Virus record (IMG/VR): IMGVR_UViG_3300045012_000049
Coordinates: 1-45,636 of that record
Direction: 5' to 3' (one strand)
DNA length: 45,636 nucleotides
DNA from: a virus
Part shown: positions 11,369 through 17,700 of the stretch, in pieces
How positions within the stretch are numbered: position 1 is the stretch's first letter
How the letters are laid out: every line of letters begins with the position of its first letter
The notes under the pieces: generated by a model
Told to the model about the DNA's origin: nothing
Databases searched by the model: none
What the model saw: only the letters and a program-made list of their open reading frames with translations
Position numbers and translations under genes: made by a program

Positions 11369-11625
11369 CCAATCCCGGCGTCGACGACGACGAAGCCGTT
11401 ACGGTTCGCGATCCCCCACTCCGAGCAATACGCGGCCCGCTCGAGCGCGGCCGCCGGCGTCGCCGCGTCGAGCTCGGCGTAGCTCATCGCGTTGAGCTGC
11501 GCGCCTTGCTTCACGGCTGTCACGTCCGTAGGTGATAGCCCGCCGCCGCACGAGACTGCTATCAGTGCGGCGGCGAGCCCGAGAGGCCGCGCAAGGCGCT
11601 CCCGATTTTTGGGTAGTCCGGTCAA
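11353..11625 (-). CDS. Lipoprotein (90 aa), TTG start
   Basis: A start at TTG 11623-11625 overlaps the upstream stop (TTGA) and places a clean lipoprotein signal at the N terminus: TGLPKNRERLARPLGLAAAL then IAVSC with acylated Cys 26. No ATG or GTG gives a sensible start, so TTG is preferred. The mature part is a short helical domain with two Cys near the end (AAYCSEWG, GIGC). It is the second of three lipoproteins in this region. Role unknown; one of them may serve as outer-membrane spanin. Confidence 0.6.
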   Translation of the reverse strand: MTGLPKNRERLARPLGLAAALIAVSCGGGLSPTDVTAVKQGAQLNAMSYAELDAATPAAALERAAYCSEWGIANRNGFVVVDAGIGCSAP

Positions 11626-12494
11626 GCGGCCGCCTTCGGCGGGAACATCGCGACGATCGGGTTCACGTTCGAGGCGTTGCCCCCGAGCGCGATCCACGCC
11701 TCGGCTTGATCGCTCACGTGGCGGCCGTGCGAGTCGAGCCCGGTTGCCTTCGAAAACTGCAACGCGGAGAACGTCACGAACGCTTGGGGATCCACGGACG
11801 CGATGAACGCCGGCGATACCCAGCACCATCCGCCCCACGTCCAGAGGCGAACGTTGCCGCTCGCGTCGACGTCCGCTTGCGCCGTGAAGTGCCCGTTGTT
11901 CGGATCGGGCGTCATCGCGGAAAGGAACGACGCGCCGGTCTGGAACTCTTGAAGGAACGCATCGGGCACGGACCACGCCATGTTCACGGCGAAGAACTGA
12001 TCGATCATGTACTGACACAGCGGGCCGTTCGTGATGTCGAAGTCCATGTGATCGCAAACGGTCTGCGTCGTGTCGCCGGCGATGCCCGTGATCCAAATGC
12101 CGGCGGGAGTGTCGGGCCCTTCGGCCGTCGCGACGAGCATGTCCTCGTCCGTGCCGTTGTCTCCGCCGCTCACGGCTTCGTATTGCGCGACGAGCGCGGC
12201 CTGATCGACGCTGCACTCCGTGAAGCCGGGCTTCCCTTGCCCGAACGTGCGGATCTGATCGATGTGAGCGCACATGACGGGCCCGCAATCGCCGTACGTA
12301 TCGTTCCCGAGCATCGGGCACGAGCACGTCGCGTTGCCCGTGCAATCGACCGGGAGCGATGTCGTGGGCACGCTCGAGGCCGTGCACTTGGGATGCGTCT
12401 TCTTCGCGCGCATCGTGTCGCGGTGCGTGAAGTGCACCCATCGTTTGTGTTTCGGGAGCCACTTCTTCTTCGCCGTCGCTGTCTTCGTCGTCAT
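11622..12494 (-). CDS. Putative papain-like cysteine peptidase (290 aa)
   Basis: The N-terminal 30 residues are very basic (KKKWLPKHKRWVHFTHRD). CSCPMLGNDTYGDCGPVMCA follows, where C70 sits at the head of a helix as in papain-fold (C39/C1-like) enzymes, and GH202FT with WTWGGWCWVSPAF lies in the position expected for the catalytic His and the strand after it. Related proteins with 'GNDxYGDC' occur in phages and bacteria without defined roles. It may process virion or host proteins or cleave peptide cross-bridges of the cell wall. The fold assignment is by motif only. Confidence 0.55.
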   Translation of the reverse strand: MTTKTATAKKKWLPKHKRWVHFTHRDTMRAKKTHPKCTASSVPTTSLPVDCTGNATCSCPMLGNDTYGDCGPVMCAHIDQIRTFGQGKPGFTECSVDQAALVAQYEAVSGGDNGTDEDMLVATAEGPDTPAGIWITGIAGDTTQTVCDHMDFDITNGPLCQYMIDQFFAVNMAWSVPDAFLQEFQTGASFLSAMTPDPNNGHFTAQADVDASGNVRLWTWGGWCWVSPAFIASVDPQAFVTFSALQFSKATGLDSHGRHVSDQAEAWIALGGNASNVNPIVAMFPPKAAA

Positions 12495-12841
12495 TGTGCA
12501 CCCGCGTCAGTCTGTAGCGCTTGCCACTGTTGAAGATGGGAGACGTAGACTGAGCTCACGACGGCGCCCTTGCGAGTCGTGACGGTGCCCGCGTCGTTCA
12601 CTTGCGCGTTCGCGATGAGCGCCGCAATGTCGGCGTAGAGCTCGGCGGCCGTGAGCCCGCAATCGGCGAGCGTTTGCGCCAAGAGCGCCGGCGTAGGGGT
12701 CTGCGTTACGTCCGTGATTACGTCCACGGCACACGCGGCCGCGTTCGTGATCACGTTCGGCAGATTCGCCGGCGGAGGACATGCGACGACGAAGGCGAGG
12801 CACGCGCTTACGAGTGCGCCGTAGACGGCTTGGGTTCTCAT
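12491..12841 (-). CDS. Lipoprotein (116 aa)
   Basis: ATG 12839-12841 begins a 20-residue signal (RTQAVYGALVSACLAFVVA) ending at C21, a good lipobox (VVAC) followed by PPPANL. The mature domain is helical with two Cys (AAACAVD, ADCGLTA), so it may hold one disulphide. It lies directly after the holin-like gene (2 bases apart) and is coupled to the peptidase-like gene by ATGA. An outer-membrane spanin is one candidate role; no inner-membrane partner is obvious. Confidence 0.65.
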   Translation of the reverse strand: MRTQAVYGALVSACLAFVVACPPPANLPNVITNAAACAVDVITDVTQTPTPALLAQTLADCGLTAAELYADIAALIANAQVNDAGTVTTRKGAVVSSVYVSHLQQWQALQTDAGAQ

Positions 12842-12843
12842 GG

Positions 12844-13188
12844 TCAGGCTGCTTTCTTTTCTGCGATTGCGTTGTCGTTCGCGGGCGGAGTCGGCGCACG
12901 CTTGTACGCGTCGAAGTGTTGCTTGACGGTGACGCCGGCGACGTTGCCTCCAATGGCGACGAGCGACGCCACGAGCGCGGCGAACCATGCGGCCCCGTTC
13001 TTCTCAGGTGCGGCGACGATCGAGGCGACGCCAGCGGAGAGGAAGATCGCGCTAAGCGTGAGGTAGGGAAGCCACGCCTTCGGCACGGTGATCACGCCGA
13101 GGAACGAGCCGGTGTTGACTGCTTGCGTGACGTACCCGGCGACAATGCCGAGGAGCGCGATCACGACCGTTGTGTAGGAGAGAACCAT
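12844..13188 (-). CDS. Holin-like membrane protein (114 aa)
   Basis: The 114-residue protein has three predicted transmembrane helices (about residues 4-24, 38-60 and 66-86) and a charged, basic C-terminal tail (NDNAIAEKKAA), the size and topology of a class I holin. It would form lesions in the inner membrane at lysis time. It sits between the receiver-domain membrane protein and a lipoprotein. A second small membrane protein (2133-2294) near the transglycosylase-like gene is a rival candidate. Confidence 0.6.
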   Translation of the reverse strand: MVLSYTTVVIALLGIVAGYVTQAVNTGSFLGVITVPKAWLPYLTLSAIFLSAGVASIVAAPEKNGAAWFAALVASLVAIGGNVAGVTVKQHFDAYKRAPTPPANDNAIAEKKAA

Positions 13189-13219: not shown

Positions 13220-14050
13220 CTATTTCAGACTGGAGGCCGGGGCTAGCGTGGTTGCCACCTCGCGCGTGATGCGGCCGTAATCAACGCGCTCGGGTTTCGG
13301 TTGCAGAGCGGATACAAGCCATACGAGGCCTCCGAGCAAGATCGCGACGATGGGAAGCGCGGTTTTGATGAAGCGGAAGCCGCTTCGGATCTCTTCGACG
13401 TTCGCGCTGATCTCCCGCACGAGCCCGCGCTTTCCCGGCCCGTTGTCCTCGAAGTGTCCCTCTTGCTTCGTCATGCGCTCTCGCAAGTCTCTGATCGCCA
13501 TAGCGACCGGCTCGTGTTGCTCGGCAAGCTCCGTGACCTTTGAGATTTCCTTCTCGTCGTAATCCGGGAGGCGCGGAGCGCTGTTTGCGCGCGCTCGGTA
13601 CGGGGCGCGAGGTGTATCGGGCGGAGGCGGAACGGAGTAGCGCGGTCCGCGCGGCTTCATGCAAGTAAGGAACGGACGGATCATCCGATCGATCGCGGGC
13701 ACTCGGTAAGGCTTCTCGATCACGGGAAGCGACTCTCCCGTCGTCGGTGCGCGGTAGCGTTCAAGCTCTTCGACCACGCCAGGGATCCCAAGCGCGCCGG
13801 TCGCGATCACGATGCGCTCGAGGCGCGCCGGCGCTTGCGCCTGTAGCTGCGAAAGGATCGCGAGGCCGCTCGGACCCTTGCCGAGCATGAGATCGAGAAA
13901 CGTGACGTCGATCTCTTCTTCGCTAAGGAGCCGCGCAAGAGCTCTGTTCGCGTCGTGTTCGAGGATGACTTCGTGGCGCTCCCGCATCAGGCGTTGGAAC
14001 ACCTCCAAGATCGGCCGCTCGTCGTCGACTACAAGAATGACGAGTCTCAT
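13220..14050 (-). CDS. CheY-like receiver domain fused to a membrane anchor (276 aa)
   Basis: Residues 1-125 form a complete two-component receiver domain: acidic pocket D9-D10, phosphoacceptor D53 (FLDLML), T84 (IATGA) and K113 (EKPYR) are all present. Residues 134-160 are a Pro/Arg-rich linker, ~165-215 a charged coiled coil, and ~220-240 one transmembrane helix (ALPIVAILLGGLVWLVSAL). A short tail follows. No histidine kinase is encoded in the genome, so a host kinase or small phosphodonor would have to act on it. It is coupled by ATGA to the receptor-binding gene upstream and lies next to the holin-like gene. Confidence 0.85.
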   Translation of the reverse strand: MRLVILVVDDERPILEVFQRLMRERHEVILEHDANRALARLLSEEEIDVTFLDLMLGKGPSGLAILSQLQAQAPARLERIVIATGALGIPGVVEELERYRAPTTGESLPVIEKPYRVPAIDRMIRPFLTCMKPRGPRYSVPPPPDTPRAPYRARANSAPRLPDYDEKEISKVTELAEQHEPVAMAIRDLRERMTKQEGHFEDNGPGKRGLVREISANVEEIRSGFRFIKTALPIVAILLGGLVWLVSALQPKPERVDYGRITREVATTLAPASSLK

Positions 14051-14778
14051 ACGATTGTGAACCCATATCGAGCGTTGACGTACGCGACGAGCTTTGCAAG
14101 ATCACCCGCGCTGATCGCGCCTTGTGCAACGATGACTTCGGCGATCTTGCCGTTCAGCGGATCCGACACGCCGTCACCACCACACCCGATCGTCAATCCG
14201 GTCGGCGCATCGATTCCACACGAAAGCCCGGTGACTGGCGTGGACGAATTTACGTACATCGAGCTTGTCGTCGTTTCAAAGACGGCACCCAAGAACAGGG
14301 GAGCACCAGTGGGCGCGATCCCGCTCGACGCGAGGAGTCCGGCGCGCATGCTGTAGTGACTGAAAATGATGTCGACGGCCGCGTGATTGAGCGCGAGATC
14401 ATCCGTGTAGGTCTCGTTCGTTCCCGCGTCGTCGTTCCCCACGATGAAGACCGAATATGGTTGCGAAGGGGCGACGGACCACACGCCCGTTTGTAGAAAC
14501 TGCGTGCTCGCGGCCACGAACAAGAGTGTCGCTTGGTGATTGTAGGACGCGTCCGAGGCCGTATGCGTCGGCCGCGCGGGTGCGCTCGACTGCAACGCGT
14601 TGCGGTTCGTGTCGCCCGCACCGCTTTGATCTGCCCATGCGCTGACTCCGCCCGCCACGAGCGTCACTCCAAGGTCGGCGCGTAGCCACAGAAGCGCGCC
14701 GGCGATCTTTTGCGGAGTCCACACCGCCGGAGCCGATACACCACCAAAGCCCAGTCCCAAGCCTAGCCCGAGGTTCAT
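14047..14778 (-). CDS. LamG/concanavalin-like tail fibre or adhesin protein (243 aa)
   Basis: Start ATG 14776-14778 overlaps the tail spike stop (TGATG). After a Gly-rich N terminus, ALLWLRADLGVT and VSAWADQSGAG match the opening of LamG-type carbohydrate-binding sandwich domains, and KIAEVIVAQGAISAGDLAKL with YVNARYGF matches their typical end. This fold binds glycans. The position right after the spike marks it as a receptor-binding accessory. Confidence 0.75.
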   Translation of the reverse strand: MNLGLGLGLGFGGVSAPAVWTPQKIAGALLWLRADLGVTLVAGGVSAWADQSGAGDTNRNALQSSAPARPTHTASDASYNHQATLLFVAASTQFLQTGVWSVAPSQPYSVFIVGNDDAGTNETYTDDLALNHAAVDIIFSHYSMRAGLLASSGIAPTGAPLFLGAVFETTTSSMYVNSSTPVTGLSCGIDAPTGLTIGCGGDGVSDPLNGKIAEVIVAQGAISAGDLAKLVAYVNARYGFTIV

Positions 14779-17700
14779 CAGTAGCTCGATTCCAAAGTGT
14801 AACGCACCGTGCTCCACACGCTTCCCGATCCGCCACCTCCGCCCGAGTGAACGGTCATCCCGGATTGCCATGCGAGCGGAAGTGTTTTCGCCGGAAGATG
14901 TGTCGTGATCGTTCCGCTCGCCGTCGTGTTCGCGGTGAGATCGTTCAGCGTCCAGGCGATAGACGAGGCGTCCGGCGTGGCGACGAGTTCAAGCTCGATC
15001 AAGTTCCCCGTAACGATCGGGATGCCAGAGTCGGCCACGGTCACAGCTGCGCCGTCGCACGAGATGATCTTCCAGTTGCCAGTAAAGGCCCCGCCCGAAG
15101 CTGTGAGCGTGAAGCCGGCGCCTACAGCTTGCACCGTGGTCTGCGTCGTCCAATCGATGTTGGTAGCGGTCGACACCTGAGTCATGTCCAGCATGCCCAC
15201 GAAGGCGTAGACGGTTGGCGACGGGTCCACGAAGTCGATGCCAAAGCGCGTGGTCAGCGTGAACCCGCCGATCCCAGCCGCGTTCCCTCGAAGCACAGCG
15301 CCGGTATCGTTGGATGTGATCAGGTAGCTTCCGAGCCACACCGGACCGCCCGATCCAGAATATGCAAACCCACGCGAAGAGCTCCCTAGGAGCGTGGTCG
15401 CGTCTTGTGGCTGTACGTTCGAGTTGCCGATCGAAAGTAGGCAGTTGAGACCCGGTGTCTCGCCGCTGATCGTTCCTAGGCTTCCTGACCAGTATTGAAC
15501 ACGCGTTTGCGAAAGAAGCTCGCCGACGTCGGGAGACGTGGATGCTGATGCCGGTGCGTCAAGATAGATCCATCGCGACGTCACACCGTCATAGAGGAAC
15601 CGCGCCGACGATGTGCGTGCGGGCAGAACGACATCAGCTCCGGTCAACGTTGTGATCCGATTCGCGGCCGTGCTCGAGGCGTCTTCATGTGTGATCGTCA
15701 TCGCTTGCGCTGTGGTGTTCAAGATCGTCAACTCGGCACCGTCGGTGCCCCCGACGAATCCGCCGAGCGCAAAGGCGCCCGTTGGGCCAGTGATGCGCAA
15801 GAACGACGTGAGCGTCGGGGAGATCGATACGTTCGAGTTGAGGCCATTGCTTACAGCCTTAGAGCTGTGACGCGCGCCGATCACGCCGAGTACGTCGACG
15901 CCAGCGAGCGTGTTGGGGCGACAGTTGACGCCCACGCCCCCGCTTCCGTCGAGACAGCTTTCAACGATGCCCGCGCTTGCCGGGTCGACGTCGAGCATCT
16001 GACCGGCGACCGAGGAGCCCGAGCCGCCGGGCGGAAGGTTGCCCGTGCATGTGAGCGCGATCACGTTCGCCGCGTTCGAGACGGGCGGAACGGTCATCAA
16101 CCGACAATCGTTCCCCGTCAGTCTGCACCCATAGATCACGCCGACCACGTCAAGGAGAGGAACGTCGGTTGTCCCGGTGACGTTGTCGAGCGTGAGATTG
16201 TAGACGGTGCCGATCGATTTGATCGTAGAGACAGTCGATCCCTCACCCGAGCAGTCTTGGATGCGGAGCCCGAAGCAATTCCCTACTTGGCCGAAATTCT
16301 TCCCGCACTCGAAGGCGCAATCTCGGATCACGTTGTCGACGCCATCGCCGGCCACATACCAGCCGTTCGAGGCGCCGTTGAAGTTGGCTTGTTGCAACGT
16401 GTTCTTATTTCCGCTCGTGCCGCTCGTGAAATAGAACGAGCCGACGCGGTAATCGAAGGCGCTATCGGCGCCACGGTCTTCGGTTTGATCCGTGAGGGGA
16501 TAGCCGTGCGTCCCGTCTTGCACGCCATCGAAGTGCATGTTCAGCGCGAGACACGCCTCGCACCCGTCGAAGGACAGCTTGTTTTTGAAGCCGCCGATCC
16601 GAATGTCGCGCACGAGCACGCCGACGTCGCCGACACACTCGATCCCGACATCGTTGTAGAGGTTCGCGTAACAGGCGCCGCCAGAGGCGAGCGTCTCCGT
16701 CACGGGTTGCAACATGTCTGTGCTGCTTACGGTCATGACGGTTGCGGTCAGAGCGACGATCGTGTGTCTGTAACTGTTCTGATAGTTGACAAACGTGTCG
16801 GCCCAATAGACCGTTTGCCCGACCGCGAATCCGTCGGAGATGAACGAGCCGGTCGACCGTGTGTATGTGCGCGCCGTCCCGTTGACGGTGATCGACGGCG
16901 AGCCGCTCATCGTGACGACGTCGGCGTTTCCGCCTTCGTTCGTACCCGCGATCTCGAAGCCTTCGAAGATCGTTCCGTTGCGCGAATTGGAGTCGAGATA
17001 GTGCCCGAGCTGCACACCCACACCCGTTCCCGAGAATACGAACGTGGTCCCGCCGGGGAGCGGCGCGTTCGAGCCGCTGTCACCTCCGCGGCCTTCGTAG
17101 TCGCTCGTTCCGTGCCCCATGATCCGCATGTCGAAGGGCCACGGCCCGATCGTCTTGGAAAAAAGGTACTTCCCTGCGGGATATTCGAGCTTGTTCTGTT
17201 GCTGCCCGAACACGTTGAGCGCGGCGAGCATCGCCGCGTGAGCCGCGGCGTTATCCGTCACACCGTCGCCGATGATCCCGTAGTCGGTCGGCGTGATGTA
17301 CTTCGCGAGCTCGGGCTGAACGAAGATCGCCCCGTTGACGTCGCAAACCCCGACGTACTTCAAGCCCGACACGCACGCCGAGTCGGTCACGCGTACCGGG
17401 TTGCCCAACGCATCGATCCCAACCTTGCACGCGTAGCCGTTTCCGAGACTCACGACGCCCGGAGGGACTAGGCCTTGCGTGACCATCACGATCGTGTCGT
17501 TCGGTGCGCCGGCCGTGATCGCGATGCCGGCGGGAAGAATCGAGACGCCTTGCTTCGCCGTTACTGCGAGCACAACGTCGCCGCTCGAGGTCATAGCGAC
17601 CTGCCCGGCGGCGAAGGTACTGCTCGAGGCCGCGACGGTTTGCGACGCTTCGACCGTTGCGGTGATATGCGTCGTGTCGTTCGTCGCATCGTCGGTAATC

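Follow-up and report, generated by a model that had tools for sequence, protein, structure and literature searches.

A phage-encoded receiver domain fused to a membrane helix in a late operon, and its possible part in the timing of lysis

The receiver gene and its neighbours

The DNA analysed (the window) is IMG/VR record IMGVR_UViG_3300045012_000049, positions 1 to 45,636, ie 45,636 nt of a linear and possibly incomplete viral record. It carries the gene set of a contractile-tail phage, with terminase, portal, protease, capsid, sheath and tape measure. A gene for a protein of 276 amino acids lies in a tightly packed late operon, which runs from the tail genes through this receiver gene to a holin-like gene, a lipoprotein gene and the gene for a 290-aa protein (Table 1).

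Table 1. Coordinates of the receiver gene, the parts of its product and the adjoining genes.
Feature	Position	Strand	Basis and remarks
LamG-like virion protein gene	14047..14871	(-)	phrog_10356 virion structural protein, E 4.9e-12; stop overlaps the ATG of the receiver gene by 4 nt
Receiver gene, 276-aa ORF	13220..14050	(-)	ATG start
Receiver (CheY-like) domain, residues 1-128; phospho-acceptor Asp53 at 13892-13894	13667..14050	(-)	PF00072 over cut-off; D9, D10, D53, T84, K113 intact
Pro-rich linker, residues 129-165	13556..13666	(-)	sequence SVPPPPDTPRAP; codon-position-2 GC up to 0.69
Helical stretch, residues 166-229, probably cytoplasmic; coiled coil uncertain	13364..13555	(-)	low-confidence model; Pro181 and GPG breaks
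Single C-terminal membrane helix, residues 231-249	13304..13360	(-)	Kyte-Doolittle hydropathy 2.41; N-in, C-out predicted
Holin-like protein, 114 aa, about 3 TM, charged C-tail	12844..13188	(-)	hydropathy; no family match
Small lipoprotein, lipobox FVVAC, possible o-spanin-like part	12491..12841	(-)	sequence
290-aa protein, papain-like Cys/His motifs, candidate lysis peptidase	11622..12494	(-)	motifs GDCGPVMCAH and NGH...WTWGGWCW, by eye only; no family match

The receiver domain matched the Response_reg profile PF00072 at 38.8 bits in a six-frame search and at 36.9 bits with hmmscan, against a curated cut-off of 30.2 bits. The sequence-only reading of this DNA had named five receiver residues as intact, and all are where it had placed them, in a domain that is genuine. 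AlphaFold models made from single sequences had pLDDT values of 49.5 and 49.1, with strands and helices alternating in the receiver part, and a Foldseek search with the low-confidence model (pLDDT 49) gave no significant match. Because the pLDDT was low and Foldseek uninformative, the fold assignment rests on the profile match and not on the model. Pfam gave only PF00072 and a match to the cREC family PF20274 below its cut-off (18.5 bits vs 27); there is no output domain in the 276-aa protein, including a C-terminal DNA-binding domain of the PhoB/OmpR type.

The Pro-rich linker that had been described is present, and its high GC at codon position 2 is that expected of a stretch rich in Pro, Arg and Ala. 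The coiled coil said to follow it was upheld only in part: the segment is helical in the low-confidence model, but a coiled coil there is doubtful because Pro181 and a GPG at about residues 204-206 break helices. The claim of a single membrane helix was confirmed, there being one strong hydrophobic segment in the protein. The genome had also been said to lack a kinase, and no HATPase_c match was found in the record, which is linear and may be incomplete.

The adjoining gene had been called holin-like. Its size, about three membrane segments and position agree with that description, but it has no match to known holin families and no relatives of it were found, so the label rests on size, topology and position. 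The downstream genes match no known family, and 'lysis module' is accordingly a term drawn from topology, gene order and a sister phage described below. The 290-aa protein, with its GDCG...NGH motifs, may be an endolysin or a lysis peptidase.

Receivers in related phages and in Alteromonas phages

Relatives of the phage were gathered with TerL, portal and baseplate profiles and combined with earlier sets, and 124 virus records, many of them fragments, were screened for PF00072. Sub-threshold matches in three records (G009-G011) were set aside as chance, being located in virion-type genes. Apart from these, two of the 124 records hold a receiver. One (G069) is a close sister phage, with a portal protein 49% identical, and is the only other close family member with a receiver among these records. 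Its receiver stands alone with the phospho-site residues intact, and is preceded by a protein of roughly 100-118 aa whose C-terminal membrane helix is weak. The lysis-type region of this sister phage (L171, 4295-8087) contains the receiver, a membrane protein, a papain-like peptidase (PF00112-like), two lipoproteins and an Rv2525c-like glycoside-hydrolase-like protein; the PF00112-like protein has the same kind of position as the 290-aa protein in the window. The other record (G031) is a distant relative, whose receiver comes after an HTH segment in surroundings of the early type (L062, 1456-2043).

No homologue of the fused protein was found in viral contigs, INPHARED or related loci, and its C-terminal half searched alone gave chance matches only. 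The suggestion that a fused receiver-linker-membrane-helix gene might be found beside holins in related phages was thus not borne out; the form that recurs is an unfused pair. Phage-labelled INPHARED matches to the fused protein were rejected, as they appear to be bacterial contigs that were submitted under phage names. A DNA pattern scan for VVDDERP gave 14 matches, none in a receiver, a multi-host receiver alignment was too divergent for a collection scan, and a generic receiver consensus returned mainly mislabelled bacterial DNA from INPHARED. The entries 'Listeria phage LM', 'Staphylococcus phage SA Kay', 'Acinetobacter phage MD-2021a' and many named 'Bacteriophage sp.' are contigs with chromosomal-type two-component genes. 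Such contigs heavily contaminate INPHARED, swamp receiver searches and hide other cases.

Output-less receivers recur in six lineages of Alteromonas phages: V22, A5, PB15/XX1924, H4/4-R8W, R9Y1-3 and V19. V22 and A5 were reached by text search and not by position; the receivers of A5 and XX1924 as queries added PB15, XX1924, H4/4, R8W and R9Y1-3, and V19 came after. The proportion of lysis-linked receivers is therefore biased, since the survey of isolates was seeded with receivers already known to be lysis-linked. In all six lineages a gene for a small one-helix membrane protein precedes the receiver gene, frequently overlapping it, and the location is nearly always a lysis cassette. There is exactly one receiver per genome (9/9 records tested) and no kinase domain over cut-off (0/7 records tested), with one weak sub-threshold match in A5.

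In A5 the gene for a helical membrane protein is followed by those for the receiver, an Rz-like spanin (phrog_4297), a 2-TM protein and an endolysin, and in V22 the order agrees as far as the 2-TM protein. The gene annotated in both as a CheY-like auxiliary metabolic gene overlaps the spanin gene by about 30 nt, inside the lysis cassette (L253, 10251-12365; L254, 11370-13039). In PB15 a helical protein with a C-terminal TM is followed by the receiver, an M15 peptidase and a 3-TM holin of the Pfam GTA type; XX1924 is similar, and the receiver of this lineage adjoins the M15 peptidase or a DUF5675 protein. H4/4 and R8W have a class II holin, a one-TM protein, the receiver, a 2-TM protein and the terminase, and R9Y1-3 a one-TM protein, the receiver and a GH108 endolysin. 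The one-TM gene and the receiver gene share 4 nt in H4/4, R8W, R9Y1 and XX1924. The membrane partner in PB15/XX1924 consists of a cytoplasmic helix followed by a C-terminal TM, which is the layout of the C-terminal half of the 276-aa protein. H4/4 gp44 and R8W g48 (L259/L260, 4492-4953) are named 'DNA-binding response regulator', yet Pfam gives a receiver only, without a DNA-binding domain.

Like the 276-aa protein, the lysis-cassette receivers of these phages (V22 gp30, A5 gp11, PB15, XX1924, H4/4 gp44, R8W g48 and R9Y1) are output-less, lack a cognate kinase and are tied to a one-helix membrane protein. They differ in that a gene of its own encodes each of the two parts, whereas in the 276-aa protein these form one fused chain. 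The Alteromonas pairs lie beside holin or endolysin genes, and the gene in the window beside a holin-like 3-TM protein with no family match. D9, D10 and D53 are invariant across ten aligned divergent phage receivers, and the loss of D53, which would have spoken against the sequence-only reading, is not routine. The phospho-Asp is lost only in V19 (L263, 4227-4950), where the one-TM protein is paired with a pseudo-receiver in which that residue is replaced (PDLLFIPASEKG) and the Lys is also gone; the V19 pair is encoded on the opposite strand and flanked by tail genes, with a multi-TM protein and a DUF5675-like protein close by. Phosphorylation is therefore not needed everywhere. Where the Alteromonas receivers have been discussed in print they are not treated as lysis genes: the 'CheY-like' genes of V22 and A5 were published as class II auxiliary metabolic genes of a host-recognition module (PMC7289586, PMC10579305), and the R8W gene as PhoB, an auxiliary metabolic gene (PMC8228385). 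No description of a receiver as a component of a lysis cassette was found in the literature searched.

Comparison with known systems and origin of the receiver

The closest parallel in topology is gp63 of phage N4, an experimentally shown class III pinholin of 110 aa, in which cytoplasmic juxtamembrane mutations speed lysis (PMC12642591). In both proteins a cytoplasmic helical N-terminal part precedes one membrane helix at the C-terminus, N-in/C-out, the topology that marks class III pinholins, although the orientation is a prediction for the 276-aa protein. Both genes follow tail genes in the lysis region, and in the N4-like phage A5 the membrane-protein/receiver pair (gp10-gp11) stands at the position of N4 gp63. 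The likeness is one of topology and position, with no claim of homology, and gp63 lacks a CheY-like domain. The 'receiver domain' of the N4 preprint (PMC12642591) is a short juxtamembrane stretch, not CheY-like, and the name is a coincidence.

Other receiver proteins resemble the 276-aa protein in part. RomR of M. xanthus combines an N-terminal receiver, in which the phospho-Asp is Asp53, with a Pro-rich region towards its C-terminus (PMC3420945), so that architecture and the position of the phospho-Asp are alike, but it functions in polarity and no membrane helix is reported for it. The cREC domain of jumbo phages (PF20274) is likewise receiver-like; the 276-aa protein falls below its cut-off, however, and no NAD/ADP-ribose or RNA-repair neighbours were seen. 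Bhz63 carries a different kind of system, a full two-component pair of DNA-binding regulator and kinase, away from lysis genes.

In NCBIfam the receiver matched best those of EspA and EspC, two Myxococcus hybrid kinases (E 9.6e-9 and 1.5e-7), with both matches far below the curated cut-offs; the 276-aa protein differs from these in lacking a kinase part and in being fused to a membrane anchor. By portal protein, Mx4 of Myxococcus is among the nearest isolate phages (about 30% identity), and no receiver was found in Mx4. A myxobacterial host would fit the EspA/EspC matches and the portal likeness, though these are not proof of it. In a small tree the receiver joined host hybrid-kinase receivers, apart from those of the Alteromonas phages. 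The tree had few rows, and those from hosts had been selected for their likeness to this receiver, which biases the placement; it points weakly to an independent recruitment and does not support common descent with the Alteromonas lysis receivers. Because the receiver does not group with them, a function shared with them would rest on convergence.

A possible role in lysis timing and its rivals

We propose, giving it about an even chance, that the 276-aa protein belongs to the lysis module as a membrane protein under the control of its receiver and that lysis timing responds to the state of the host phosphorelay. The idea had been raised in the sequence-only reading, and it now has strong circumstantial support, as several phage lineages that are unrelated to one another carry output-less orphan receivers in their lysis cassettes, in every case behind the gene for a one-helix membrane protein; the effect on timing itself stays conjectural. 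The 276-aa protein fuses parts that are separate in the Alteromonas phages, which by the classical fusion argument suggests that receiver and membrane protein are functionally linked. Together with the layout in PB15/XX1924, the pinholin gp63 and the position of the A5 pair, the fusion makes receiver control of a holin-type membrane protein the most likely function.

The sequence, the domain, its residues, the topology prediction, the gene order and the recurrence are observed, and to these we would add the following steps. The protein would lie in the inner membrane, N-in/C-out, as gp63 does. Host histidine kinases or acetyl phosphate would phosphorylate Asp53, which may alter dimerisation or contacts of the receiver. 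The altered receiver could then change the assembly either of the 276-aa protein, were it itself a pinholin, or of the adjacent holin, were it a regulator, and the time of lysis would in that way be set by the signalling or metabolic state of the host.

Several findings count against receiver-controlled lysis. The 3-TM neighbour lacks a holin-family match, the TM of the partner is N-terminal in most of the Alteromonas phages and C-terminal only in PB15/XX1924, and a receiver is present in just one further close member of the family. Accessory genes, moreover, have a known hotspot at the end of the late operon, and tail-fibre/lysis junctions commonly gain them. The strongest rival builds on this: an accessory gene that taps host signalling, as a phosphate sink or as a mimic of chemotaxis or phosphorelay components, with the lysis genes nearby merely as an insertion site. 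We consider it unlikely, though a serious competitor. It is the published reading for V22 and A5 (class II auxiliary metabolic genes) and for R8W ('PhoB'), and the rarity of receivers in the phage family agrees with it, but it leaves unexplained both the repeated one-helix membrane gene overlapping and preceding the receiver and the fusion in the 276-aa protein. The 'PhoB' of R8W and H4/4 has no DNA-binding domain, and a soluble phosphate sink would need no membrane anchor.

The loss of phospho-Asp and Lys in V19, which also counts against control by phosphorylation, would be accommodated if the receiver did no signalling and were a dimerisation or binding scaffold for a lysis membrane protein. 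Both single receivers and pseudo-receivers can act through protein contact. All five active-site residues are nevertheless kept in the 276-aa protein, and the three Asp positions are invariant in the ten divergent phage receivers, which makes such a scaffold improbable. Least probable by far is interference with host polarity or motility, in which the target would be motility or development signalling and not lysis. The architecture of receiver and Pro-rich region resembles that of Myxococcus RomR and FrzS, RomR in particular sharing Asp53 (PMC3420945), and the EspA/EspC and Mx4 likenesses point to the same bacteria; yet neither RomR nor FrzS gave a sequence match, RomR is not known as a membrane protein, a myxobacterial host is itself conjectural and a motility gene would hardly be expected in a late operon.

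Receiver control of a holin-type membrane protein may extend beyond this phage. More tentatively than for the 276-aa protein itself, we suggest a class of lysis-timing sensors, in which receivers were recruited several times by unrelated phages, are tethered to a holin-type membrane protein and read the phosphorelay or acetyl-phosphate state of the host, so that bursting is tied to host physiology without transcription; the 276-aa protein would be the fused form. Few cases are known in which the time of lysis is tuned to the condition of the host, among them the dual start of lambda, RI/T of T4 and superinfection in N4. If the proposal is true, a lysis-cassette receiver connects bacterial two-component signalling directly with the holin, and the 'PhoB' and 'CheY' auxiliary metabolic genes of R8W, V22 and A5 would be reinterpreted. 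The question is testable in isolated, culturable Alteromonas phages. A fused protein here, and neighbouring genes in the cassettes of unrelated marine phages, suggest that phages may read the signalling state of the host at the moment of cell bursting.
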